A DNA stretch of 64,000 nucleotides from Larkinella terrae (GTDB taxonomy: Bacteria > Bacteroidota > Bacteroidia > Cytophagales > Spirosomataceae), in the NCBI RefSeq assembly GCF_009668025.1, contig NZ_WJXZ01000004.1, forward strand, positions 62,001 to 126,000, read 5' to 3'. Below are positions 5,729-52,151 of the stretch, in pieces (the stretch's first letter is position 1; the number at the start of each line of letters is the position of its first letter). Below the pieces are notes generated by a model. That model was not told the origin of the DNA and did no database searches. It saw only the letters and a program-made list of their open reading frames with translations. The translations under genes and the position numbers were made by a program.

Positions 5729-8700
5729 ATGACAACCTATACAGGAATGGTACGGCGGTTGGGATGGATGCTTCTGTGTTGGGGGCTGTTTGTCGGCGCG
5801 GCCTATGCACAAACTGCCGTGCAGGGAATTAAGGTAAGCGGGAAACTGTGTATTGCCGACCCATCTTGCGATACGGGTGTGATGTTTGAAGATACCGTAC
5901 CCAACGTGCGCTCCCGGGTCTGGAGTTTTGGCGACGGCGCTTCCGGTCAGGATACCTCTTCAGCCGCCAAACCCAAGCATTCTTACAATAATCCCGGTAC
6001 TTATACGGTTACGCTGACCCGAACCATGCAGGATGGGTCGAAGCAAACCGCTTCAAGACCGATTACCATCGGTGTTCCGCCCACCCAATTTCAGAACTGG
6101 CGAACGGATACCATGTTGTGTAACGGGCAGAAAATAACACTCGATCCGTATCCAAACGGTGCACCGGCAGGGGCGAGTTATCTCTGGTATCCCAAAGGCG
6201 ATACGACCCAAACCATTCAGGTCGATAGTGCGGGATGTTACTCGGTGGAAGTCTGGATTGGTTCACAAAAAGACAAGCCGAATGTCTGTTCAACAGAAAA
6301 CCGCATCAACGTGCAGGTGTGCGGGCAGCAGCCGCAACAACAGGGCGCCAAGTGGTATTTCGGAAACAATGCCGGAATCGATTTTTCCGGCGGTAGCCCC
6401 AGCCCGCTGGACGATGGAAAACTGAATACCATCGAAGGGTCATCGTCCATCTCCAACACCAAAGGGCAGCTTCTCTTTTATACCGGCGGGGTTCTCATTT
6501 ACGACAAAAATGGGAACCTGATGAAACCGCTCAATCCGGCCGACACGGCGCAGCTGCAGGGTAGTCAGAATTCGACCCAGTCGGCGTTAATTGTGCCGCA
6601 GCCGACCTGTAAAGGCTGTGAATACCTCTACCGGGTGTATACAACTTCTGAGATTAACGGCAAGAAAAACCTGACCGTGAGCCTGGTTGATATGCGTTAT
6701 AATCAGGGAATTGGCGCTATTGTCGAGAAAAACACCCTGGTGGATTCCCTGACGACGGAGCGTCTGGCTTCAGTCCGGAATGATCGTGATACAACTTATT
6801 GGGTTATTTCGCACGATTACGGTAACAACAAGTTTCAGGTCTATCACGTAACGAAAGCCGGTGCGGAAGGTCCGGTCGAGTATGCCCTCGGCATGCCGCA
6901 CGATACCACAACCAAGGGCGAAGGCTACATGAAAATCGGTCCGGCCGACACGACCGGGAACGGAAACCGCCCCATTGCGGTCGTGGTGCCCGGTCCGCCC
7001 ACCAACTACGTCGAAACGTTTACGTTCAACGATTCGACCGGCGTCATGACTGCTGGTCCTTCCATCAACATCGGCCCGGCGCCACCGAAAGCGTACGGCG
7101 TCGAGTTCTCACCCGACGGCTCGAAACTCTATGTTACCTTACAGGGCGATACGGCGCACGCTTCCCAGATTCTGATTTATGACCTGACAAATCCGGACCC
7201 GGCCGCGATCGAAGCCTCCAAGACGGTTTTGGATAGTACAAAGGCGCGGGAATACGGCGCTTTGCAGATCGGTTCTGATGGTAAGATTTACGTGGCCATC
7301 AAAAACGGAAAAAGCCTGGGGGTGATCGAAAATCCGAACGATGCATTGCTGGCCCCCGCGACGTTCGATCCGAATGGTCTCAATCTGAATGGGCCAACGA
7401 GCCAACTGGGTTTGCCGAACATGGTCGCCAATTTCAACGAACCGTCCAGTTCACCCGGTTTTTCATATGCCGACACCTGCGCCGGTTCGCCCACCCAGTT
7501 TACGGCCACGCCCCGCTGTTCGCCTTTAAAAGATAATTATACCTGGAACTGGGGCGACAGCAGCGCGCCGTTCAGCACAACGGCTACGCAAGCCACGCAT
7601 ACGTTTCAGCAACCGGGCGTTTATCCCGTTAGCCTGCGTATTGTAACCATGCGTTCGGATGGAAGCATTTGTAAGGATACGTTGATCACGCAGAATGTAA
7701 CCATTGTCAAAACCCCCGACCCAATTAATCTGGGGCCGGATATAGACAGTTGTAAGAATACCGTTACGCTGGATGCCAAAGTGGCGGCTGGTGTTTATAT
7801 CTGGCTGCGAAATGGGCGGGTTCTGCGAGGGTATAATGAACGAACATTGACCGTGACGACCCCGGGCAGGCCGGGATACAACGGCATTACACCGGGGCGG
7901 TTTGTGGTTATTGCTGCGAACGGGGGCTGTTTTTCAAGTGATACGATCAACGTTTCCCTGCGTCGTCCGCCTAATTTTACGCTTGGCCCCGATACAACGC
8001 TTTGCCTGAACAGTTCCTTAACCTTAACTGCCCGCGGCAACGGATGGAACAGTTTCAAATGGAGCAATGGTTCGACGGAGCGTGAAACGACGATCAGTAA
8101 AGCGGGTCAGTATTCGGTTATTGTTGGCGATATCAACGGTTGCGAAAACACCGATACGGTGGCGGTGGTTGCCTTGCCAAAACCGGCAGTAACAGCCTTC
8201 ATGACCCCTCCGAGCGGTTGTACGACCACCGACGGCAGCATCCGGCTCAGCGTTGGCTCGGCCACGGTTCGGCGGTTTGAGTGGAGTTTGGCTGGTCAAC
8301 CGATTGGCGATACCACGGCGCTGTTGCAGGGCATCCGGGATGGGGAATACACTGTTCGGATCATCAGTAATAATGCCTGTACGGTCGATACCACGCTGAA
8401 GCTCCAGTCCAACAACAGCATTGAAGTAAAAGCCGATCCGCAGACGGCCCTGTGTACGGTTCCGCAAAGCGGTTCCATTCGACTTACGGTGGTGAAGGGG
8501 CGACCGACGGAGTTTATCTGGCGGGATGCCGCCGGCACGGTGGTCGGGAATGGGTCCGGTTTGACCGGTATTAACGGCGGGGTCTATAGCCTCGAAGCGC
8601 GTGATACCGGCGGCTGTCTCGATACCCTGAATAACATCCGCGTTCCGGTCGATACCACTGGTTTTGTATCCTTAGGCCCTGATCGGGGAAAATGCATCGG

Positions 8701-14873: not shown

Positions 14874-14946
<73 letters not shown>

Positions 14947-15058: not shown

Positions 15059-15244
15059 ATGGAAGAAAACCGTCAGAAAACCAGCACATATGCCAAACTA
15101 TCCGTCTGTAGGGATTTATTTATTCACTGGACCTCTATGAATTTGGATGCACCTGTCCGGTGGCCCTATCTTCACATTTCCTTTCAAAAGGAAAGCGGAA
15201 ACACCCAAACGGCCTTTTCATAGCCCTAAACACCTGCATTGCGT

Positions 15245-16837
15245 ATGATTTTAATTGTTGATGACAGGCCGGAAAATATTCTTCCTCTAAGAAAAATACT
15301 TGAATTGCACAGCTTCTCGGTCGACACTGCCGAGTCGGGCGAAGAAGCGTTGAAAAAAGTACTGAATACCAATTATGCCGTCATTATTCTGGATGTGCAA
15401 ATGCCCGGAATGGACGGTTTTGAAGTCGCCAACGCCATTGCGGGGTTCAGCAAAGCCAAAGACACGTCAATCATCTTTCTGTCGGCAGTAAATACGGAGA
15501 AAAAATTCATTACCAAAGGTTACACGTCGGGCGGTGTGGATTACTTAACCAAACCGGTCGATCCGGATATTCTGGTTCTGAAAGTAAAAACCCTGCAACG
15601 GCTTTACCGGCAGCAACAGGAGTTAAGAGAAACCCAGAAGTCGCTCCAGAAAGAGATTGAGGTGCGAAAACAGGCGCAGGAGGAAATTGCCGGTCGCATG
15701 CAGGAATTGCGGTCGGTACTGGCCTCACTTCCGCAAATGGCGTTTACCATTGGCCCGGATGGCAATCTGGAATACGTCAATGAACACTGGTTTCGCTATT
15801 CCACCGATCAGCATGCTTTTCCACCAGCCCACCCCGATGACAAAAAAATGTGGGATGATTGGGATTTTTATCTGAAAAATGGAATTGAGTTTACGCGGGA
15901 AGTGCGCCTGAAAGAGCTCACAACGGGCGATTACCGATACCATTTATTACGGATATTGCCCATCCTGCAGCAGGGAAAACCGATTCGGTGGGTCGGAACG
16001 TTTACCGACATTCACCCGCAAAAACTAGCCGCTGAATTACTGGAGCAAAAAGTAGAATTACGGACAAAAGAACTCCTGAATAAAAACCTGGAACTTGAAC
16101 GAAGTAATCACGAACTTCAGCAATTTACCTGGGTTGTTTCGCACGATTTAAAAGAACCGCTCCGGAAAATACAGATTTTGAATGACCTGATTAAGGAAAA
16201 ATACTTATCAGAAAACTCAGAAGCAATTAGTTACCTGGATCGATCAATTAATTCGTCGGCGCGCATGTCCGGATTGATCAATGATTTACTTGCTTACGCC
16301 CAGTTATCGACACCCGCTTTATTTCAGCCAACGGATTTGACCAGTTTATTAAATGAGATCCTGGTTGATTTCGATGAAATTATTACCACCAAAAAGGCGG
16401 TTGTTAAGGTCGACCAGTTACCGGTTATTGATACCGTTCCAGGCCGGATCCGGCAGGTTTTTCAAAATCTGATCAGCAACGCACTGAAATTTTCCAAAAA
16501 GGAAATACCACCGGTTATTACCATCACGGCAGAACGTATTGCCGAAAAGTCCGTGGGTAGCGAACCGGCTCCGGAAGGCGGTTTTTATCGTATTGTAGTA
16601 AGCGATAACGGCATTGGGTTCGATGAAAAATTTATGGATCGTATTTTTGTCATTTTCCAGCGATTGACGGATCGGGCAAGTTACGAGGGTACCGGTATTG
16701 GTCTGGCAATTGCCAAAAAAAATATGGACAAACACAACGGAATTATTGCCGCCAGAAGTAAGGTAGATGAAGGAAGTCAATTTATTCTTATTCTCCCGTT
16801 ACACCAGATTAACGAACCCGAAATCCAGGAAAGATAA
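15245..16837 (+). CDS. Response regulator receiver - PAS - histidine kinase protein
   Basis: A soluble 530-residue signalling protein. An N-terminal REC domain (about 1-120; phospho-acceptor D50 in ILDVQMPGMDG, conserved lysine K103 in LTKP) is followed by a coiled coil, a PAS domain (about 155-260), and a HisKA/HATPase kinase core with phospho-accepting H300 in VVSHDLKEPLR, N box NLISNALKFSK, G1 box DNGIGFDEKF and G2 box GTGIGLAIAKK. Start: ATG 15245 places MILIVDD exactly where a REC domain begins; an in-frame TTG at 15239 is less likely. No membrane segment is present, so it acts in the cytoplasm and is probably switched on by phosphoryl transfer from a partner such as the next gene product. 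First gene of a five-gene operon; the next gene begins 21 bases downstream. Confidence 0.9.
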   Translation: MILIVDDRPENILPLRKILELHSFSVDTAESGEEALKKVLNTNYAVIILDVQMPGMDGFEVANAIAGFSKAKDTSIIFLSAVNTEKKFITKGYTSGGVDYLTKPVDPDILVLKVKTLQRLYRQQQELRETQKSLQKEIEVRKQAQEEIAGRMQELRSVLASLPQMAFTIGPDGNLEYVNEHWFRYSTDQHAFPPAHPDDKKMWDDWDFYLKNGIEFTREVRLKELTTGDYRYHLLRILPILQQGKPIRWVGTFTDIHPQKLAAELLEQKVELRTKELLNKNLELERSNHELQQFTWVVSHDLKEPLRKIQILNDLIKEKYLSENSEAISYLDRSINSSARMSGLINDLLAYAQLSTPALFQPTDLTSLLNEILVDFDEIITTKKAVVKVDQLPVIDTVPGRIRQVFQNLISNALKFSKKEIPPVITITAERIAEKSVGSEPAPEGGFYRIVVSDNGIGFDEKFMDRIFVIFQRLTDRASYEGTGIGLAIAKKNMDKHNGIIAARSKVDEGSQFILILPLHQINEPEIQER

Positions 16838-16858
16838 GCGATTCTCAAGTGTATAGTT

Positions 16859-19800
16859 ATGCCGCAAACGACCAACTCCGTAATCCGACAATTACAGATT
16901 GTCTTTTCCGTTTCAATCCTGCTACTGGTACTCAGTCTGGTAGCTTCATTTTATAGCACCCAGAAGTTGATCAGTAATTCGAAGTTGGTGAATCATACCA
17001 ATCAGATTCTGATCGAAGCCGAAAACATCATTTCCTACGTAAAAGATGCCGAAACCGGTCAGCGCGGGTACTTGATTTCGCTCGATCCGCTCTTTTTACA
17101 GCCCTACTACGGAAGTCACGAGAAAGTAGATGCCAGCTATAAACTGGTCCGGGAATTAACCATTGATAATCCAATCCAGCAAAAAAACTTGGCAGATGTG
17201 AAGGCATTATATGAGGCAAAGTTTGTCCAGATGCAGCGGATTATTGACATGACTAAACGGAATAAATCGTTCACCCGAGATACCATTGCGCGTCATACTG
17301 AAATGATAAGAGGTAAGAAAATAATGGACGACCTCCGAATCATCATCAGTCAAATAAAAAAGGATGAAAATACGTTGCTGGAAGCCCGACTGGAACAGCA
17401 GCAAATTTATATCACCTATACGCCTTACCTGCTTTTAATTGCAGCCCTGATTTCAATAATTATCAGCGGGAGCACGTATATGCGGATCAAAAAAGATCTG
17501 GATGATCGGCTGGCCAAGCAGAAAGCCGATGAGGCAAGATATAGGGAAACCGCCGAGCGAATCACCATAATGGAAGATATTACATCGGAAATTGCCGATG
17601 GAAATTATGCCGCCCGAAGCCAGGATACGGCCGACGATGAATTGGGGCGAATTGCCAAAGCGCTGAACACGATGGCAGAATCGCTTGAAACAACTTTTAC
17701 GGATTTGAATAATCGAAACTGGCTGCAAACCGGTTCAGCGAATATAAACGACGCCATTCGGGGCGAACGCGATCTGGAAAAACTAGCTGATAACCTCATT
17801 GCAACGCTTGCTAACTATATAAATGCACCGATCGGTACGGTTTATATTATTGACAATGACTCGGATTTTAAACTGGCCGGAAGCTATGCAGCAACCGATG
17901 CGCCAACAACGGTTAAAATTGGGCATGGTCTCATTGGTGAGGTTGTTAAGAACAGAAAACCGCTTATTATTCACGACCTTCCGCCCAATTATATCCGCGT
18001 TAATTCGTCCTTGGGTAACACACCTCCTTCGGCTTTAATCATTGTGCCTTTGATCTATTCAAAGGTGTGTATAGGGGTGATCGAAATCGGGCTTTTGAAA
18101 GCGCCGGAAGCTCTGGAAATCGAATTCTTAACTGCGAATCTGGAGACCATTGCGATTGGCGTCAATGCCGCGCTGGATTACGTAAAACTTCAGAATTTTC
18201 TGGAAGAAACGCAGGCGCAATCGGAAGAATTGCAGGCCCAGCATAATGAACTGGAAAATGTAAATGCCGAGCTGGAAGCACAGTCTTTAAAGCTGCAGGC
18301 GTCTGAAGAAGAACTACGGGTGCAGCAGGAAGAACTGCAGCAGACCAATTCCGAACTTGAAGAACGCAGCGTTTTGCTGGAGGAAAAAAATGAGGAAATT
18401 CAACGGAAAGCGGAGGAACTGGAACTAACGACCCGCTACAAGTCCGAGTTTCTGGCCAATATGTCCCACGAACTTCGGACGCCCCTCAATTCAATTCTGT
18501 TGCTGAGCCGGTTGTTGGCCGAAAACAACGAAGAAAATCTGTCGGAAGAACAAATCGATTATGCCAAAGTGATTCAGTCGTCCGGGAACGGGTTGCTCGG
18601 GTTGATTGATGAGATTCTGGATCTTTCCAAGATTGAAGCCGGTCAGATGAAGCTGGAGTATCTGGATGTTTCCGTTTCCGAAATAACCGATGAACTTCAT
18701 GCCCTGTTTGCGCCACTGGCAAAAGAGAAGGGGTTGGATTTTAAAATTATTGCCGATAAAAATGTTCCGGCGGTTATTGAAACTGATAAGATGCGGCTCG
18801 GGCAAATCCTGAAGAATTTAATCTCTAATGCATTGAAATTCACTTCTAATGGCGGAGTAGTACTGACTATAAAGCGTTCAAAAAACTCGGATTCGATACT
18901 GAGTTTTGTGGTGAAAGATACGGGCATTGGCATACCTCCGGAAAAACAGCAGCTTATTTTTGAAGCATTTCAACAGGCCGACGGCTCGACCAAACGGAAA
19001 TATGGCGGCACCGGTTTAGGCTTGTCCATCAGCCGCGAACTGACAAAGTTGCTAGGAGGAGAAATTGTATTATTCAGTAAAGTGAACGAAGGCAGCGAGT
19101 TTACGGTGAACATTCCCGTTAGCCATCTGCCTGAGAACAGTTTGCCGGAGAAAACGACGCAATTCGTAACCCGAAAACCGGAGCCGACGCCCGCCAAAGA
19201 AGCTGAAGTTTCGGATAAATACCTTAGCACGACCATTCCGGAAAACATCCCGGACGACCGGAATTCGATCACGGAACGCGACAGAGTTATTCTGATTATC
19301 GAAGACGATACGAATTTTGCCAGGTCGTTGCTGGATTATTCCCGGCAGAAAGGCTACAAAGGTATCGTCGCGGTTCGGGGTGACGAAGGATTGAAACTGG
19401 CTGGAATTTACAAACCGCTCGGTATTTTACTGGACATTCAGCTGCCGATTATGAGTGGCTGGCAGGTGATGGATGCGCTAAAAGCCGATTCGCAGACCCG
19501 CCATATTCCGGTGCATATCATGTCGTCGCACAAGTTAAAAAACGAAAGTTTACTGAAAGGGGCGGTTGATTTCGTGGATAAACCGATGGCTTTTGAGCAA
19601 ATGCAGGAAGTCTTTAAAAAGATCGAATACGTCTTGAATCGGACAAGCAAGAAAGTACTGATTATTGAGGATAACCCTAAACACGCCAAAGCGCTGGCTT
19701 ATTTTCTGGAGACATTCAACATCCATTCTGAGTTAAAAAGTAATGTGTCGGAAGGAGTAAATTCACTCCGGAAAGATGAGATCGACTGCGTTATTCTGGA

Positions 19801-20461
19801 TATGGGCATTCCGGATTCGAAAGCGTACGAAACCCTGGAAGAAGCCAAGAAAAATCCGGGACTGGAAAATCTGCCGATCATTATTTTTACCGGGAAGAGC
19901 CTTTCACTGGCTGAAGAATTAAAAATTAAGAAATACGCCGATTCAATTATTATAAAAACCGCTCATTCGTACCAGCGCATGCTCGATGAAGTGTCGCTCT
20001 TTCTTCACCTAGTCGATGAAGCAAAAAAGACGGGCAGTACCAGCGGTAATTTTAAAAAGTTGGGCGCTTTGAGTCAGGTATTGGCGAATAAAACCGTATT
20101 GATTGCCGATGATGATGTACGGAATATTTTTTCACTTTCGAAAGCGCTGGAAACGTATAAAATGAACGTTATTACGGCACTGGATGGCAAGGAAGCCTAC
20201 CAGAAACTTCAGGAAAACCCAAACATTGATGTAGTTTTGCTGGATATGATGATGCCGCAGATGGATGGCTATGAAACCGCTAAAAAAATCCGGGAAAATC
20301 ACCAGTGGAAGAATTTACCGGTTATTGCCGTTACGGCGAAAGCCATGACGGGTGATCGGGAAAAATGCATTCAGGCGGGCGCATCCGATTACATTACCAA
20401 ACCGGTTGATATTGATCAACTTATGTCGCTGTTGCGGGTCTGGCTCTATGAACGCTCGTAA
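16859..20461 (+). CDS. Hybrid histidine kinase CHASE3-HAMP-GAF-HisKA-HATPase-REC-REC-REC
   Basis: A 1200-residue membrane sensor kinase. Two helices (about 10-32 and 182-202) flank a periplasmic CHASE3-like domain with the family's DAETGQRGYL motif. A HAMP segment, a GAF domain (about 295-445) and a long glutamate/glutamine-rich coiled coil (about 450-525) lead to the kinase core with H537 in MSHELRTPLNS, N box NLISNALKFTS, and G boxes DTGIGIPPEK and GGTGLGLSIS. Three receiver domains follow, with phospho-acceptors D859, D981 and D1129. REC2 (ILDMGIPDSKAYE) is the most divergent. This layout implies an internal phosphorelay branching to several outputs. Flanked in the same operon by another kinase and a free REC protein. 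Confidence 0.93.
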   Translation: MPQTTNSVIRQLQIVFSVSILLLVLSLVASFYSTQKLISNSKLVNHTNQILIEAENIISYVKDAETGQRGYLISLDPLFLQPYYGSHEKVDASYKLVRELTIDNPIQQKNLADVKALYEAKFVQMQRIIDMTKRNKSFTRDTIARHTEMIRGKKIMDDLRIIISQIKKDENTLLEARLEQQQIYITYTPYLLLIAALISIIISGSTYMRIKKDLDDRLAKQKADEARYRETAERITIMEDITSEIADGNYAARSQDTADDELGRIAKALNTMAESLETTFTDLNNRNWLQTGSANINDAIRGERDLEKLADNLIATLANYINAPIGTVYIIDNDSDFKLAGSYAATDAPTTVKIGHGLIGEVVKNRKPLIIHDLPPNYIRVNSSLGNTPPSALIIVPLIYSKVCIGVIEIGLLKAPEALEIEFLTANLETIAIGVNAALDYVKLQNFLEETQAQSEELQAQHNELENVNAELEAQSLKLQASEEELRVQQEELQQTNSELEERSVLLEEKNEEIQRKAEELELTTRYKSEFLANMSHELRTPLNSILLLSRLLAENNEENLSEEQIDYAKVIQSSGNGLLGLIDEILDLSKIEAGQMKLEYLDVSVSEITDELHALFAPLAKEKGLDFKIIADKNVPAVIETDKMRLGQILKNLISNALKFTSNGGVVLTIKRSKNSDSILSFVVKDTGIGIPPEKQQLIFEAFQQADGSTKRKYGGTGLGLSISRELTKLLGGEIVLFSKVNEGSEFTVNIPVSHLPENSLPEKTTQFVTRKPEPTPAKEAEVSDKYLSTTIPENIPDDRNSITERDRVILIIEDDTNFARSLLDYSRQKGYKGIVAVRGDEGLKLAGIYKPLGILLDIQLPIMSGWQVMDALKADSQTRHIPVHIMSSHKLKNESLLKGAVDFVDKPMAFEQMQEVFKKIEYVLNRTSKKVLIIEDNPKHAKALAYFLETFNIHSELKSNVSEGVNSLRKDEIDCVILDMGIPDSKAYETLEEAKKNPGLENLPIIIFTGKSLSLAEELKIKKYADSIIIKTAHSYQRMLDEVSLFLHLVDEAKKTGSTSGNFKKLGALSQVLANKTVLIADDDVRNIFSLSKALETYKMNVITALDGKEAYQKLQENPNIDVVLLDMMMPQMDGYETAKKIRENHQWKNLPVIAVTAKAMTGDREKCIQAGASDYITKPVDIDQLMSLLRVWLYERS

Positions 20462-20517
20462 GAATTATTTTAGCCGTACTTTTAATTCAATCGATTTTCG
20501 TAATTAAACTGGCAAAA

Positions 20518-20883
20518 ATGGGTAAGAAGCGAATATTAATAATTGATGACGATGCCCGCAATATTTTTGCCCTGAGTGCAACTTTACGGGCCCGCGCTTT
20601 TGATTGCGTATCGTGCACAAGCGCGCGGGAAGCGTTGGATTTACTGAAAACGGAGGTCGTAATAGACGCTATTTTGATTGACATGATGATGCCCGAAATG
20701 GATGGCTATGAAGCTATCCCGCACATCAAAAATATCGCAAATAGGGTGCATACGCCTATTTTCGCCGTAACTGCGCAGGCAATGGTTGGCGATCGGGAAA
20801 AATGTTTGCAGGCCGGTGCAACGGATTATATCTCAAAACCGGTCGATGTGGATAGACTGTTGCAGTTATTATCGCACATTTAA
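20518..20883 (+). CDS. Single-domain response regulator
   Basis: A 121-residue stand-alone receiver domain: acidic pocket DDD near residue 10, phospho-acceptor D55 in LIDMMMPEMDGYE, switch T in FAVTAQA, and lysine in ISKPVD. It has no output domain, so it likely shuttles phosphate or binds a target. It is strikingly like the third receiver of the preceding kinase (shared blocks DMMMP-MDGYE, GDREKC-QAGA-DYI-KPVD), which suggests duplication. It begins 56 bases after that gene and ends 10 bases before cheR. Confidence 0.92.
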   Translation: MGKKRILIIDDDARNIFALSATLRARAFDCVSCTSAREALDLLKTEVVIDAILIDMMMPEMDGYEAIPHIKNIANRVHTPIFAVTAQAMVGDREKCLQAGATDYISKPVDVDRLLQLLSHI

Positions 20884-20893
20884 TGAGTTTACA

Positions 20894-21703
20894 ATGATAG
20901 AGGAGGATGAGGTAGATCTGGTGTTAAATGATCTCTTTGAGTTATATGGTTATGACTTTACGAATTACGCGCGGGCGTCGTTGAAGCGACGAATCAACCG
21001 GTTATTTCTTCTCGATAAATTTCCCAGTTTTGCCGAATTTCGGTACCGGCTTAAATCGGATGCCGACTACATAAAACGAGTGATCGAAGGACTTACGGTA
21101 ACGGTTACCGAGATGTTTCGCGATCCCTTATTTTATAAAATATTGCGGGCAGAAGTAATTCCATCGCTGGCGTCCAAGCCTTTTATTCGAATCTGGCACG
21201 CCGGATGTTCGACCGGTGAAGAAGTGTTTTCGATGGCTATTTTATTGAAAGAAGCCGGACTTCTGCATAAATCACTGCTTTATGCGACGGATTTAAATCC
21301 GGAAGTTCTTGAAAAGGCGCGGAAGGGAATTTTTCCGATCGTCCAGATGAAACAATATTCTGAAAACTACATTGAATCGGGCGGAAAAAACGATTTCTCA
21401 GCGTATTATACCGCGCAATACAGCCAGGCAAAATTTGTCGAAACACTGGCAGAACGAATGATTTTTTCGACTCATAATTTAGTTTCGGACCGTTCTTTCA
21501 ATGAATTTGATCTCATTTTATGCCGAAACGTGCTGATTTATTTTGATAAATATTTGCAGGAACGCGTCCTGAATTTATTTAACGAAAGCATCGGAACACT
21601 CGGCTATTTGGCTTTGGGTTCCAAAGAAACCCTCAATTTTTCAGCCATCAAGCCGAATTATAAACAGATAAATAAAGAAAAAATATGGCGGAGAATAAGC
21701 TAA
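20894..21703 (+). CDS. CheR-type protein-glutamate O-methyltransferase
   Basis: A 269-residue SAM-dependent methyltransferase of the CheR family. The N-terminal helical domain (DFTNYARASLKRRINR) precedes the SAM-binding core HAGCSTGEEVFSMAI (about 100-115), with YATDLNPEVLEKAR and LCRNVLIYF further on, all CheR signatures. The ATG at 20894 starts the CheR domain cleanly; a frame running back to 20786 overlaps the preceding gene and is rejected. It overlaps the cheB-like gene by 19 bases, so translation is coupled. CheR normally methylates chemoreceptors, but no receptor, CheA or CheW gene is present here, so the target may be one of the operon's coiled-coil kinases. Confidence 0.92.
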   Translation: MIEEDEVDLVLNDLFELYGYDFTNYARASLKRRINRLFLLDKFPSFAEFRYRLKSDADYIKRVIEGLTVTVTEMFRDPLFYKILRAEVIPSLASKPFIRIWHAGCSTGEEVFSMAILLKEAGLLHKSLLYATDLNPEVLEKARKGIFPIVQMKQYSENYIESGGKNDFSAYYTAQYSQAKFVETLAERMIFSTHNLVSDRSFNEFDLILCRNVLIYFDKYLQERVLNLFNESIGTLGYLALGSKETLNFSAIKPNYKQINKEKIWRRIS

Positions 21704-22275
21704 AAACCGCCTGTAAAGCTGTCGTTATCGGGGGCTCTGCGGGCAGTATTGAAGTATTGTTAAAACTGCTTCCTGCTTTATCTCCACCTTTGTCATTTGC
21801 GCTGATTATCGTTCTGCACCGCAAAAATTCGACCGATTCATCGCTGGTTAATCTGCTGGCGCTTAAAACAAACCTTCCGATTCGGGAGGTGGAAGACAAA
21901 GACGCGGCTGCTCCGGGCGAAATCTACCTGGCTCCCGCTGATTACCATCTGTTAATCGAAAAAGAAGAGATGTTTTCGCTCGATGATTCCGAAAAAGTGA
22001 ATTACAGCCGCCCGTCGCTGGATGTTACGTTCGAGTCGGCGGCCGATGTTTACGGTTCTTCCCTGGTTGGCATTCTGTTGTCGGGTGCCAATGCCGACGG
22101 AACGGCGGGTTTAAATACGATCAAAAAAAAGGGCGGAATCATTGTCGCCCAAAAACCGGAAACCGCTCAGTCCAGTTTTATGCCCCAGCAGGCAATCCTT
22201 TATACGCCAATCGATTACGTATTTGATGTGGAAGAACTGACGGTTTTTGTCAATTCGCTTAATGCCAACGCTTGA
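21685..22275 (+). CDS. CheB-type methylesterase (stand-alone catalytic domain)
   Basis: A 196-residue protein-glutamate methylesterase/amidase domain. The catalytic triad is visible as S18 (GGSAGS), H45 (VLHRKNS) and D138 (GANADGTAG), with spacing close to enteric CheB. The regulatory receiver domain that normally precedes it is absent; phosphorylated partners in the operon could replace it in trans. It starts inside the end of the cheR-like gene (19-base overlap) and is the last gene of the operon, ending three bases before the stop codon of the convergent lipoprotein gene. Confidence 0.92.
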   Translation: MAENKLKTACKAVVIGGSAGSIEVLLKLLPALSPPLSFALIIVLHRKNSTDSSLVNLLALKTNLPIREVEDKDAAAPGEIYLAPADYHLLIEKEEMFSLDDSEKVNYSRPSLDVTFESAADVYGSSLVGILLSGANADGTAGLNTIKKKGGIIVAQKPETAQSSFMPQQAILYTPIDYVFDVEELTVFVNSLNANA

Positions 22276-48068: not shown

Positions 48069-49043
48069 TCAGGGCGCAATCACCAGCTTTCCCATGACCT
48101 GCCGGTTCATCATTTCGGTCAGGGCCTGCGGAACTTTTTCGAGCGGATATTCCGCCTGAATGTGCGGTTTCATCTCACCTTTCTGGTAAAACCGCAGCAA
48201 TTCCTGCACATTTTTGAAATTGTCTTTCGGCTGTTTTTCCGCGAACGCTCCCCAGAAAACGCCAACCACCGAACAGCCCTTCAGCAACGGCAGATTCAGC
48301 GGAATGGCCGGAATCTGACCGGCCGCAAAACCGACCACCAGATACCGCCCCCGCCAACTGACCGAGCGCAAAGCCGCTTCGCTCAGGTTGCCCCCAACCG
48401 GGTCATAAACGACATCGACGCCGGAGCCGCCGGTGAGTTCTTTGATCCGTTCGCGGAGGTCTTCGCGGTTGTAATTGATTGTTTCACTGGCACCGGTTTG
48501 GCGGCAAAGTGCCAGCTTTTCGTCGCTCGAAGCGGCTGCAATCACCTTTGCGCCCATGATCCGGCCCAGTTCGACAGCCGCCAGCCCAACACCCCCGGCG
48601 GCTCCCAGCACCAGCAAGGTTTCGCCCGGTTGCAGATTCGCACGATCTTTCAGGGCGTGGTACGAGGTGCCGTAGGTGTACATGAGGGAGGCCGCCGTCA
48701 CGTAATCCATTCCCTGCGGAATCGGGAAAGTTTTAAAACCGTCGGCCAGCACTTCCTCGGCAAAACCGCCCCAGCCCGTCAGTGCAAAAACCGCATCACC
48801 GGTTTTCAAATGCGTGACGCCCTCGCCGACTTCCTTCACTGCCCCGGCTACTTCGCCACCGGGCGAAAACGGAAACGGCGGTTTGAACTGGTATTTGCCC
48901 TGAATCATCAGCGTGTCGGGGAAGTTGACCCCGCAGGCTTTCACCTGAATCACCAGCTTGCCTTTGGTGGCTTTTGGTGACTCGGTTTCTTCCAAGGTCA
49001 GGGTTTCGGGCGGGCCATACTGGCGGCAAAGAACGGCTTTCAT
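48069..49043 (-). CDS. NADPH:quinone oxidoreductase family protein (MDR superfamily)
   Basis: A 324-residue zinc-independent medium-chain reductase. The ATG at 49043 (MKAVLCRQYGPPE) is the standard family start; a frame to 49073 adds ten odd residues. The N-terminal GroES-like domain has VKACGVNFPDTLMI and FPFSPGGEVAG; the NADPH-binding motif is LGAAGGVGLAAVEL, and GGSGVDVVYDPVGG follows. No catalytic zinc cysteines are present. It likely reduces quinones or enoyl compounds. It precedes the acyl-CoA dehydrogenase gene on the same strand. Confidence 0.92.
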   Translation of the reverse strand: MKAVLCRQYGPPETLTLEETESPKATKGKLVIQVKACGVNFPDTLMIQGKYQFKPPFPFSPGGEVAGAVKEVGEGVTHLKTGDAVFALTGWGGFAEEVLADGFKTFPIPQGMDYVTAASLMYTYGTSYHALKDRANLQPGETLLVLGAAGGVGLAAVELGRIMGAKVIAAASSDEKLALCRQTGASETINYNREDLRERIKELTGGSGVDVVYDPVGGNLSEAALRSVSWRGRYLVVGFAAGQIPAIPLNLPLLKGCSVVGVFWGAFAEKQPKDNFKNVQELLRFYQKGEMKPHIQAEYPLEKVPQALTEMMNRQVMGKLVIAP

Positions 49044-49127
49044 CAGTAAGCAAGGAAATAGCACATATAGCACCGGTTAACTACCGAGAGAGACATCGCG
49101 CATCGCAAAAAGTAGAACTACTAAATT

Positions 49128-49664
49128 TTACTTGGGAGCAGAGTAGCCCCTGCCGTTGTTTAGATCTCGCAAAGTTGTAAATAAATCAAAGGCCGTTCCT
49201 TTATTTACCACCCAAGAAATCACAACTCCTAGTACTATTTCAGCATCTTCAACGTACCCCATACGACTATCTGCTCCACGTATTCCATCGTCGCCTATTC
49301 TATGACCACGAGTTAAAAAACAGTTTTTCTCCTCGTAAATTAAGTCTCTCGCTGGTTTAAAGTCGCTTCCGGTTGGCAGGTTCTGTTTAAGTAATTTACT
49401 AATACCTTTGTAATAGGTCTCGTACATTTTCTCTGGATCTTGAACACTGCTCAGAACCAATTTCTTTAATTCGTCTTCAGTATAAAACTCGCCAGCTGCA
49501 TCAATAGTCAATTGTTGACCTTTTACTTGATCTGCTTTCATTAAAATTTCCAATCTTTCCTGATCTGCATCGCCTTTATCTGTTTCTTTATCAGGAATGG
49601 TTTTATCAGATTGGGATTCTTCTTCCGATGAGTTTTTCAATTCATCTTCGTTATCATCGATCAT
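49128..49664 (-). CDS. Acidic protein of unknown function, partner of the ImmA/IrrE-type gene
   Basis: A 178-residue soluble protein that I do not recognise. Residues 1-40 are a disordered-looking acidic tail rich in Asp, Glu, Ser and Lys. A helical middle follows (FYTEDELKKLVLSSVQDPEKMYETYYKGISKLL), then a segment with LTRGHRIGDDGIRGADSRMGYVEDAE and a hydrophobic stretch (IVLGVVISWVV) before a short C-terminus. It has no signal peptide. It starts 11 bases after the stop codon of the HTH/metallopeptidase gene, so the two form one operon. Both are A+T-richer than the flanking core genes, which suggests recent transfer. It could be the effector or the substrate of the peptidase; neither is shown by sequence. 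Confidence 0.7.
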   Translation of the reverse strand: MIDDNEDELKNSSEEESQSDKTIPDKETDKGDADQERLEILMKADQVKGQQLTIDAAGEFYTEDELKKLVLSSVQDPEKMYETYYKGISKLLKQNLPTGSDFKPARDLIYEEKNCFLTRGHRIGDDGIRGADSRMGYVEDAEIVLGVVISWVVNKGTAFDLFTTLRDLNNGRGYSAPK

Positions 49665-49675
49665 AATGAAGTAAT

Positions 49676-50896
49676 TTAGAAATTAAAGATTGTTTGCAGC
49701 AAAGCATCCACACTGCCCTGAATAGTTTCTTTAGAAAAAACTTGTGTATTAAGAGTCTTTAAAGCAGATTCTGACTTAGGGATTTTATTTGCCAATTTAC
49801 TTCCCCACGCGTGTTCATAGCCTTTTTCTCTTAAATCGAACAAATGATAAGCATAAACAAAAGACGAATGAACCTGTGCTGATTCTGCAAACTTTTTAAC
49901 GATTATATCATCATTTATAAACGGCTCTACCTGACGTGACCTCTCTTTGCTAAAAAGAAATTTTCGTGCAAATGAATCAGCTTGATCATCATTCATTAGA
50001 AATAAATCAGGTTGCCCAGTTAGGTGGTAACCCCATTTCTCTAATTCTTCAAGATCGAATAAAGCATGGTGAAGCTCGTGAATAAGTACGTGCCAAAGTG
50101 TAGTATATCTTTTTTGGTAATCGGTGAGGACAATGCAAGGTTTACCTTTGATACAAAATGTAGCCCCCCGGACATTTACATTTGGCAAAGCAGGTTGATA
50201 AATTACAGTCACACCTAACCTATAAAGAGCTCTAACTACACTTACCAAACCATTTTCAACGTCAATAGTATAAGGACGAATTTTGGGAAGTATGTCTAAT
50301 AAATCCTTTCTCGAATACGGATAAGGATTGTTTATTTTTATAAAATGGGTATGTGCAGACTTCACCCAAAAGTCGCGCATCAATGCGATAGGATCTTTCT
50401 TAACTCTACTAAAGGCTGCACCTGCATCTATTTGATTATATTCTGTTACATCAGAGAAGCCGAAATACTTATTTATCCTTTGTTCCATATCTATAATTGT
50501 AGATTTGGAACTAAAAAAACCGCTTGATTTGAGCTGTTGTATGTCAAAATTGCTAGAGAGAAAACTTGCCTTTCGTGCTTTGTCTATTTCACCAATTTGC
50601 TCAGCGTCCATCTGTTCAGCGTATATAGCTATAAAATCGTCTATCCTTATCCCTAGAAAATGAGATAATTTAATGGCTGTCACTAAGTCAACTCTTTTCG
50701 CAGTACCATTGATAATTGAGTTAAGCGATCGATAATCAATAGCAAATAGCTCAATAACCTTGTTCTCTGAGAGGTTCAACTCTGTTAAACGTTTGTCAAC
50801 AGCTTGCTTTATAGAAGTAACGTTGAGGGTAGAAGATGTTACTTCGGGTTCAAAAAGCCGCCTGAACTCACCTAAGAAGAAATCATCCTTTGTCAT
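49676..50896 (-). CDS. XRE helix-turn-helix protein fused to ImmA/IrrE-type (M78) metallopeptidase domain
   Basis: A 406-residue protein. Residues about 25-95 hold an XRE-like helix-turn-helix (LTELNLSENKVIEL, LNSIINGTAKRVDL). A helical middle leads to a C-terminal metallopeptidase domain with the zinc motif HELHH (273-277) and a following DDQADSFARKFLF (303-315), where the usual third ligand is glutamate but here aspartates occupy the site. This build matches repressor/protease proteins such as ImmA and IrrE, which cleave a repressor in response to stress. The promoter (50914-50943) is overlapped by a perfect 19-bp palindrome, the likely site of autoregulation. The cassette is insulated by a 44-bp palindrome upstream and is low in G+C. 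Confidence 0.85.
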   Translation of the reverse strand: MTKDDFFLGEFRRLFEPEVTSSTLNVTSIKQAVDKRLTELNLSENKVIELFAIDYRSLNSIINGTAKRVDLVTAIKLSHFLGIRIDDFIAIYAEQMDAEQIGEIDKARKASFLSSNFDIQQLKSSGFFSSKSTIIDMEQRINKYFGFSDVTEYNQIDAGAAFSRVKKDPIALMRDFWVKSAHTHFIKINNPYPYSRKDLLDILPKIRPYTIDVENGLVSVVRALYRLGVTVIYQPALPNVNVRGATFCIKGKPCIVLTDYQKRYTTLWHVLIHELHHALFDLEELEKWGYHLTGQPDLFLMNDDQADSFARKFLFSKERSRQVEPFINDDIIVKKFAESAQVHSSFVYAYHLFDLREKGYEHAWGSKLANKIPKSESALKTLNTQVFSKETIQGSVDALLQTIFNF

Positions 50897-50902
50897 TTCC
50901 TG

Positions 50903-50921
50903 TATATTTACAGTAAATATA
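50903..50921 (-). promoter_or_regulatory. Perfect 19-bp palindrome: candidate operator of the HTH/M78 gene
   Basis: TATATTTAC-A-GTAAATATA on the forward strand, nine-base arms around a single central base, ending 7 bases before the start codon at 50896. It covers the whole -7 box and the predicted transcription start, an ideal site for repression by the encoded helix-turn-helix protein. Confidence 0.65.
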
Positions 50922-50943
50922 GTTCTTATGGTTAATTCCGCAA
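50914..50943 (-). promoter_or_regulatory. Promoter of the HTH/M78 cassette
   Basis: On the minus strand: TTG (forward CAA, 50941-50943), exactly 19 bp, then TATATTTA (50914-50921), seven of eight bases of TAnnTTTG. The TTG lies inside the edge of the 44-bp palindrome. The leader would be only about 10-12 bases. Confidence 0.65.
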
Positions 50944-50981
50944 AAAAAAGTCCTGCAAATTTGCAGGACTTTTTTTTGCGG
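50938..50981. terminator. Perfect 44-bp palindrome, bidirectional terminator-like
   Basis: Exact reverse-complement symmetry with no spacer: CCGC, eight A, GTCCTGCAAA, then the mirror half ending in eight T and GCGG. In RNA it would fold into a hairpin of about 20 bp with AAUU at the tip. It lies between the stop of the APH-like gene (51078) and the HTH/M78 promoter, so it probably ends the upstream transcript. Confidence 0.8.
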
Positions 50982-51077
50982 TTATCAATTATTGGATTGG
51001 AACCATTCTAGAAATTTCAAGCTATAACATCAATTCTAAGTAAGTTTGTAGATCCCATTCAGCCTTCATAGAATATA

Positions 51078-52151
51078 TTACATTTTGTTGTGTTCAATGG
51101 ACTTCGTGCCTTTGCGGGCCAACGCCCGAACGCCCGACAGCAATTCGGCAAACCGGGGGTCCTGCGTCAGCCCTTTTTGGTAGCGGGTGTAAATTTGCTG
51201 AATCACGACCGAATTCTTGAACAAACCAAATATATAGTAGTATAAAATGCCTGACAAATCGCGGCCGCTGCGCTCGGCGTAACGATCGGCCACTTCCTGC
51301 CGCGTCAGATTTCCGGGTAGCCACGTCAGATTGAACGACTTTTCGAACGGTCCGTCGGCGGCTTCGGCCCAATAGGAAAGCGCCGTTCCGACGTCCATCA
51401 GCGGGTTGCCCACGGTACACATTTCCCAATCCAAAACCGCCCGAATGTCAGTCAGGTCGGCCGGATTCAGTACCACGTTGTCGTATTTGTAGTCATTGTG
51501 GAGCAAAGTCGGCGGATTTTCGGGCGGCAAATGATCCGTCAGCCAGCGGGCCAGCGCGTCCATGTCGGGCAATTCGTCGGTTTGGGCGTTCAGATAACGC
51601 CGGTGCCAGCCTTCCACCTGCCGACGAACGTAACCCTCCGGTTTTCCCAATTGAATCAGACCGGTTTTCTGAATGTCAAGTGCGTGCAACTGCACGAGAT
51701 TATCGACCAGTGATTCCGACATCCGACGCATCGTTTCCGCCGAAATGCCCATTTGGGGAGCGGTATGCGCCCGCAGAATGACGCCCGCGACCCGCTTCAT
51801 GACGTAAAACGGGCAGCCAAGCACGGTTTCATCTTCGCAGAAAACCACCGGCTCCGGAATTTTTGGGTAATTCGCCGACTGGAGCAGCGACAAAACCCGA
51901 AATTCCCGACCCATGTCGTGGCCGCCTTTGATCTGTTTTGCGCCAAAAGGTGGTCGGCGAAGGACGAACTCAACTCCCGCGTCAGTTTTAAGTAAATACG
52001 TCAGATTGGAATAACCGCCGGGAAACTGGCCGCATTCCGTGATGCTTCCAAAACCGGGAACCGTATCGTTCAAATAGGCATTCAAAACCGCCAGATCCAG
52101 CTCTTCGCCGGAGCGGACAGCGGTGGCGGAATCGGGTTTTAGTTCAGCCAT
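51078..52151 (-). CDS. Aminoglycoside phosphotransferase-fold kinase, ACAD10/11-associated type
   Basis: A 357-residue small-molecule kinase with the APH fold. Motifs: glycine-rich FPGGYSNLTYLL with lysine-site region FVLRRPP, the catalytic loop LLHNDYKYDNVVL and the metal motif VLDWEMCTVG. It resembles the kinase half of animal ACAD10/ACAD11 and LvaA-type bacterial enzymes that phosphorylate 4-hydroxyacyl-CoA, rather than antibiotic-resistance kinases. Its start overlaps the stop of the next gene upstream, an acyl-CoA dehydrogenase, by eight bases, so they are co-translated. The pair is therefore read as one pathway step: phosphorylation, then elimination. Confidence 0.88.
   Translation of the reverse strand: MAELKPDSATAVRSGEELDLAVLNAYLNDTVPGFGSITECGQFPGGYSNLTYLLKTDAGVEFVLRRPPFGAKQIKGGHDMGREFRVLSLLQSANYPKIPEPVVFCEDETVLGCPFYVMKRVAGVILRAHTAPQMGISAETMRRMSESLVDNLVQLHALDIQKTGLIQLGKPEGYVRRQVEGWHRRYLNAQTDELPDMDALARWLTDHLPPENPPTLLHNDYKYDNVVLNPADLTDIRAVLDWEMCTVGNPLMDVGTALSYWAEAADGPFEKSFNLTWLPGNLTRQEVADRYAERSGRDLSGILYYYIFGLFKNSVVIQQIYTRYQKGLTQDPRFAELLSGVRALARKGTKSIEHNKM

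Follow-up and report, generated by a model that had tools for sequence, protein, structure and literature searches.

A conserved, mobile two-gene cassette of the HTH-ImmA kind with an uncharacterised partner gene in Larkinella terrae

The cassette and its control region

Two genes, here called B and C, lie on the minus strand of the window, the 64,000-nucleotide stretch of Larkinella terrae DNA that we analysed. Gene B (49676..50896) encodes a protein of 406 residues in which an N-terminal XRE/lambda-type helix-turn-helix (about residues 27-94) is fused to an M78-type metallopeptidase domain, and gene C (49128..49664) encodes a protein of 178 residues without a trusted library family. A preliminary description of this DNA had reported an A+T-rich two-gene cassette with 11 bases between the genes and a 178-residue partner. 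The open reading frame coordinates of the window bear this out, and the G+C content is 0.362 for B and 0.385 for C, whereas the flanking genes have 0.579 and 0.55 and the window as a whole has 0.506. The two 1-kb bins at the cassette (0.381 and 0.363) are the lowest among the 64 in the window. The low-G+C segment (49044..51080; about 2.03 kb, 36% G+C) is bounded downstream by a quinone oxidoreductase/zinc-type alcohol dehydrogenase gene (48069..49043, minus strand), the start of which was set by comparison with relatives, and upstream by an APH-like (PF01636) gene (51078..52151, minus strand), whose stop is 181 bases from B. The sole other open reading frame of at least 80 residues that lies mainly inside the segment is an 83-residue, TTG-start frame at 50760-51011, antisense to the start of B, which we take to be chance. 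A search of 48900-51300 against Rfam at gathering scores found no known RNA. Elsewhere in the window, a second block of lower G+C (15239-22275; 0.42-0.46) follows a tRNA-Met at 14874 and, by eye, contains hybrid histidine kinases and a CheR-like plus CheB-like gene.

As described earlier, the helix-turn-helix of B is joined to a HELHH zinc-peptidase domain. The motif is at residues 273-277, and all 61 B proteins compared keep its His, Glu and His, so B is probably an active metalloprotease. Residue 303, which we take to be the third-ligand position on the basis of the M78 motif ExxA(N/D)xFA, is Asp in window B and Glu in 60 of the 61 proteins; in a separate alignment, two close metagenomic relatives (P0110 and P0112) also have Asp. 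The Asp was previously singled out as unusual, and the difference exists, but it matters less than was thought: because Asp can bind zinc, Asp303 reads as a private, conservative substitution (1 of 61) with no sign of a new enzyme. In library searches, window B matched Pfam HTH_26 at E 0.0021, under that model's cut-off. Pfam M78 matched 18 of 33 aligned B proteins at E <= 0.01 and did not match window B at E <= 1. The best Foldseek match of B was CapP, with a weak E of 0.11.

The predicted structure of C has low confidence over residues 1-28 and is helical from residue 29 onward, and the family shares a conserved stretch, IYEEKNxFLTRGxR...GADSRM. Profile searches against Pfam, PADLOC, NCBIfam and PHROGs gave no trusted match, which agrees with the earlier placement of the partner in no recognised family. 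PADLOC toxin models did not match window C and gave just scattered weak matches among 44 C homologues, and PF10546 (P63C) matched neither window C nor the 44 aligned family members. A literature search by title found no paper on the XRE-M78/C pair, C having no name to search by, and none about the P63C domain. The partner had also been credited with an acidic tail. Window C does carry an acidic stretch (charge -10; pI 4.6), but it is N-terminal, and its charge is no family trait, with a median of -1 and a negative value in 23 of 44 members.

A perfect 19-bp palindrome, TATATTTACTGTAAATATA (50903..50921), is located six bases from the start codon of B and was seen in 0 of 200 shuffles, making it a candidate operator. 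It contains GTAAATATAC, one base off the common core of the family, GTAAATTTAC. A palindromic core of type GTAAATTTAC or GAAAATTTTC recurs across families upstream of B, in 39 of 63 distinct regions, whereas 100 dinucleotide shuffles gave 1.7 on average and at most 5 (for a stricter pattern, 34 of 63, with 0.8 on average and at most 4 in shuffles). These figures are optimistic, because the regions had been inspected before either pattern was drawn up. Some of the sites are long (for example, GTTTGGTAAATTTACCAAAC), and an exact core copy is absent in 24 of the 63 regions, including that of the window. In a motif-free test, the palindrome was longer than in 95% of shuffles in 19 of 74 upstream regions. 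Autorepression by B at the upstream palindrome is the natural inference from this pattern.

The palindrome overlaps a candidate promoter read by eye, TTTG-N19-TATATTTA (50914..50944, minus strand), which is presumably of the Bacteroidota type; a consensus scan gave six sigma-70 matches, not above shuffles (mean 6.3). Between the APH-like gene and the cassette is a perfect 22+22 bp inverted repeat with A8/T8 runs (50938..50981), a candidate bidirectional intrinsic terminator with an RNA fold of -33.5 kcal/mol (z -9.7). It parts the two, as expected if the cassette is insulated. The consensus terminator scan, which missed this hairpin, listed none in the interval from C to the oxidoreductase gene. 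On the minus strand after C, at about 49107-49122, a short 5-bp hairpin leading into a T run can be seen by eye and is a possible weak terminator.

Insertion, pairing and partner families

In G002, G004, G006 and G008, that is, in four of the four other same-genus genomes that have both flanking genes in one locus, the APH-like gene lies next to the quinone oxidoreductase gene, with a few bases between them. The junction alignment places the segment between the same codons that are close in these relatives, which have no counterpart of it at the matching site. The cassette is therefore most simply an insertion between the two genes, as had been suggested, and the simplest history is that the window's lineage gained it; the formal alternative is loss of the cassette in the four relatives. 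Six of the nine genomes of the genus, the window's own counted, have the APH-like gene at E <= 1e-100. At its locus in G007 the oxidoreductase gene was not found, and the APH-like gene is followed by an acyl-CoA dehydrogenase gene, which in the window lies past the oxidoreductase. C was not found in the other eight genomes of the genus.

We recognised no recombinase, integrase, excision or phage gene within the insertion, and the sole tRNA in the window is the one at 14874, away from the cassette. We rejected a target-site duplication or terminal inverted repeats of at least 10 bases, since no such repeat pair spans the two ends and none is evident in the junction alignment; shorter ones are still possible. 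Just within the insertion, the bases at 51055-51080 (TATGAAGGCTG) look like the beginning of the oxidoreductase gene that was displaced, either by chance or as a trace of the insertion event. Homologues are present on plasmids of Pontibacter, Hymenobacter and Persicobacter and are patchy elsewhere. C had no match at E <= 0.1 among INPHARED phage records, and IMG/VR viral contigs contain three loci with C.

The preliminary description raised the question of whether the two genes co-occur in unrelated lineages, and the neighbourhood survey indicates that they do. Among 39 loci with C (36 from genome contigs and 3 from viral contigs), a B gene or its visible end precedes C on the same strand in 37, with gaps of -11 to +46 bases. 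One exception, L037, is cut at a contig end, and the other, L036, has a lone C-terminal fragment of C (5953-6264) with no B in 11.8 kb, probably a decayed copy. An additional 33-residue C fragment, with no B visible, is present in G327. The pair is found in Spirosomataceae, Flavobacteriaceae, Sphingobacteriaceae, Bacteroidaceae, Chitinophagaceae and Chlorobiaceae, as well as on metagenome-assembled contigs labelled Bacillota and Alphaproteobacteria that are possibly misbinned. In a sample of 395 genomes of the phylum, C was detected in 12 (E <= 1e-3) and B in 12 (E <= 1e-30), with both in 10; the two C-only genomes (G256 and G378) are cut by contig ends, and the two B-only genomes (G116 and G379) have a P63C partner. 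None of three outcomes that the earlier description had set against itself, namely that the genes are unpaired, that all relatives have the cassette at this site with normal composition or that C belongs to a known housekeeping family, was observed.

The P63C partners occupy the same slot. In a sample of the order, 25 of 390 genomes have B, at 26 places in all, and the gene after it is C-like at 15 (two of these, L096 and L109, being weak cases and L111 duplicating L091), encodes P63C at 10, and is unreadable at L110, where B is cut by a contig end. P63C is a domain of phage antirepressor-like proteins. All 13 such partners that were scanned, drawn from the order, phylum and plasmid loci, match Pfam P63C; the scan left out L099, whose partner sequence equals that of the scanned L075. 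These pairs of Bacteroidota share the B family and gene order of the window cassette, but their P63C partners are not detectably related to C: a profile comparison gave no significant similarity (hhalign probability 6%). The partner type switches once, with full support, on a tree of 61 B proteins, although the positions of the long branches L067 and L109 are uncertain, and we rejected repeated partner swapping within the clade on the basis of this single change. B and C have also diverged together, their distances correlating with r = 0.83 over 48 pairs. Given the single change on the tree and the correlated distances, each partner goes with its own B and does not lie there by chance.

Relation to known systems

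Fusions of XRE with COG2856 beside toxin genes were predicted to be three-component systems by Makarova et al. in 2009, in the part of that study available to us (PMC2701414). The cassette resembles them in having a fused XRE-M78 gene beside a further gene, an arrangement often found on mobile DNA, but the partners described there are mostly PIN or RelE toxins, and in our library searches C matched neither family. Since this broader kind has been described for so long, the novelty lies in the partner and in the two-gene architecture; the earlier impression that the partner looks new stands for C itself, which has no library family, and does not extend to the kind of system.

The closest model for B is PD-Lambda-2_B (PDLC03982), which matches residues 32-347 at E 2.9e-13, is the only PADLOC model that window B matches at E <= 1, and is matched by 33 of 33 aligned B proteins at that threshold. 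PD-Lambda-2, a phage-defence system found by selection in E. coli, combines a HigB-like A and an XRE-peptidase B with a third protein that is related to an antitoxin of phage P4; according to the available portion of the report, B was toxic alone, A neutralised B, and defence depended on C (PMC9519451). The similarity of B to a part of this tested system speaks for the earlier interpretation. Both systems have a related B with a further gene after it. However, PD-Lambda-2 has its HigB-like A upstream of B, a gene that the cassette lacks, and its third-component model (PDLC03983; 374 positions) matches neither window C nor its 43 aligned homologues. This model found no match in the window's genome and none in control genomes either. 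From the model size, the paper's wording and an XRE-M78/Beta pair in Sulfitobacter, we infer that PD-Lambda-2_C is a PF14350 Beta protein, a family that window C does not match. We considered and rejected a HigB-like gene upstream of B, given the short distance to the APH-like stop and the lack of a recurrent upstream open reading frame in related loci. In L006 (Aquimarina), a 96-residue frame that by eye is ParE/RelE-like lies 353 bases upstream of B, and the only HigB-like (PF05015) match in the window's genome is on another contig, unlinked to B (G000:C20:198148-198414). Because A and the third component of PD-Lambda-2 are absent here, we do not claim membership.

RosmerTA offers a second comparison. 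Its HTH-ImmA antitoxin RmrA occurs with diverse toxins (RmrT), such diversity of partners being typical, and the RosmerTA of Gordonia phage Kita blocks some coliphages, as far as the accessible text of the study describes (PMC10440598). Like the cassette, it has two genes, encoding an HTH-M78 protein and an unrelated small partner. One RmrA model matches 23 of 33 aligned B proteins at E <= 1 (best 8.2e-07), but window B matches none at this threshold, so we do not claim membership here either; the PADLOC toxin models are likewise unmatched by window C. CapH-CapP and DdrO-PprI/IrrE also combine XRE DNA binding with an M78 protease, but as separate repressor and protease chains, whereas B is one chain with a further partner. 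The PprI and CapP proteases are activated by single-stranded DNA and cut a repressor, in the portion of the source available (PMC10904395).

Proposed function and alternatives

The cassette is a real, mobile and conserved two-gene module of the HTH-ImmA toxin-antitoxin/defence kind. We propose, at close to an even chance, that it was acquired horizontally and works as an autoregulated switch of the toxin-antitoxin type, most probably as a module that acts against phages by abortive infection. The precedents of PD-Lambda-2, RosmerTA, the XRE-COG2856 fusions and PprI/CapP make a self-repressing sensor-antitoxin B with an effector C the best reading. The XRE domain would bind the operator palindrome at its own promoter and repress the operon, and B would also bind C and keep it inactive, acting as sensor, repressor and antitoxin at once. 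The M78 domain would become active on a trigger, for example single-stranded DNA produced by phage replication or by damage, and might then cleave B (between the helix-turn-helix and the protease domain, or in trans) or trim C. The operon would then be derepressed, and the freed C would arrest the cell. Our choice of C over B as the effector is a judgement: the B-first gene order, the RosmerTA precedent and the exchange of partner families speak for it, and the toxicity result for PD-Lambda-2 speaks against it.

That result underlies an unlikely alternative, in which the roles are reversed as in PD-Lambda-2, with B toxic when free, through its protease or its DNA binding, and C an antitoxin or defence co-factor. 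The exclusive PADLOC match of B to PD-Lambda-2_B is consistent with it, as is the resemblance of C, small and acidic with a low-confidence N-terminal tail, to many antitoxins. However, the acidity is not shared by the family, and in PD-Lambda-2 neutralisation came from the HigB-like A, for which the 181 bases upstream of B leave no space, rather than from the third component, whose model is unmatched in this genome.

Less likely again is a regulatory module without toxicity, in which B would be a repressor-antirepressor of the mobile-element or phage type, similar to ImmR/ImmA or DdrO/IrrE, and C would modulate B or relay to another gene, for example the downstream quinone oxidoreductase. The P63C domain of the sister pairs suits this reading, and of 130 flanking open reading frames scanned among the 154 listed around homologues, two match the KilAC antirepressor domain and two match S24 peptidases. 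The XRE-M78 architecture is itself the theme of ImmR-ImmA and DdrO-PprI, as treated in the available parts of two studies (PMC2701414; PMC10904395). Against it, the inserted segment has no recognised integrase, excision or phage gene, the unit common to the loci is two genes, and the partner has been retained with B over long divergence and across families. A selfish addiction module alone, kept by post-segregational killing without phage defence, is improbable, since, for all the plasmid-borne and patchy homologues, the window copy is a single-copy insertion on a seemingly chromosomal contig (the longest contig of the protein cluster is 2,307,771 bases) and the nearest tested relatives protect against phage, according to the accessible sections of the reports (PMC10440598; PMC9519451).

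More tentatively than the toxin-antitoxin-type switch, we suggest that the XRE-M78/C pairs and the sister XRE-M78/P63C pairs may form an undescribed, self-contained immune switch of Bacteroidota and their neighbours. A conserved sensor-repressor-protease would drive either of two unrelated effector families from one slot, C would be a new effector fold, and the system would travel as just the two genes, with no recombinase of its own. HTH-ImmA proteins occupy a central place in toxin-antitoxin and phage-defence systems, as the available text of one study presents them (PMC10440598). In the minimal version found here, the toxin and antitoxin roles and the protease target are directly testable with two genes, helped by clean empty sites in relatives, the recurring upstream palindrome, a partner type that switches once on the tree and a partner family that is uncharacterised so far.

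The surroundings of the homologues are varied. At E <= 1e-10, the scanned flanking open reading frames matched 268 PADLOC families, with type I methyltransferase, MADS, AriA, LmuB and Gabija among the matches listed; because this comparison has no control, we do not use it as proof. Among plasmid XRE-M78 genes (L064-L075), annotated RelE/ParE toxins lie directly upstream in Paraburkholderia, Thauera and Microscilla. On the Sulfitobacter plasmid, a Beta protein is encoded downstream of the XRE-M78 gene, with no annotated toxin directly before it, and the Pontibacter plasmid copy has a RES-Xre pair beside it.
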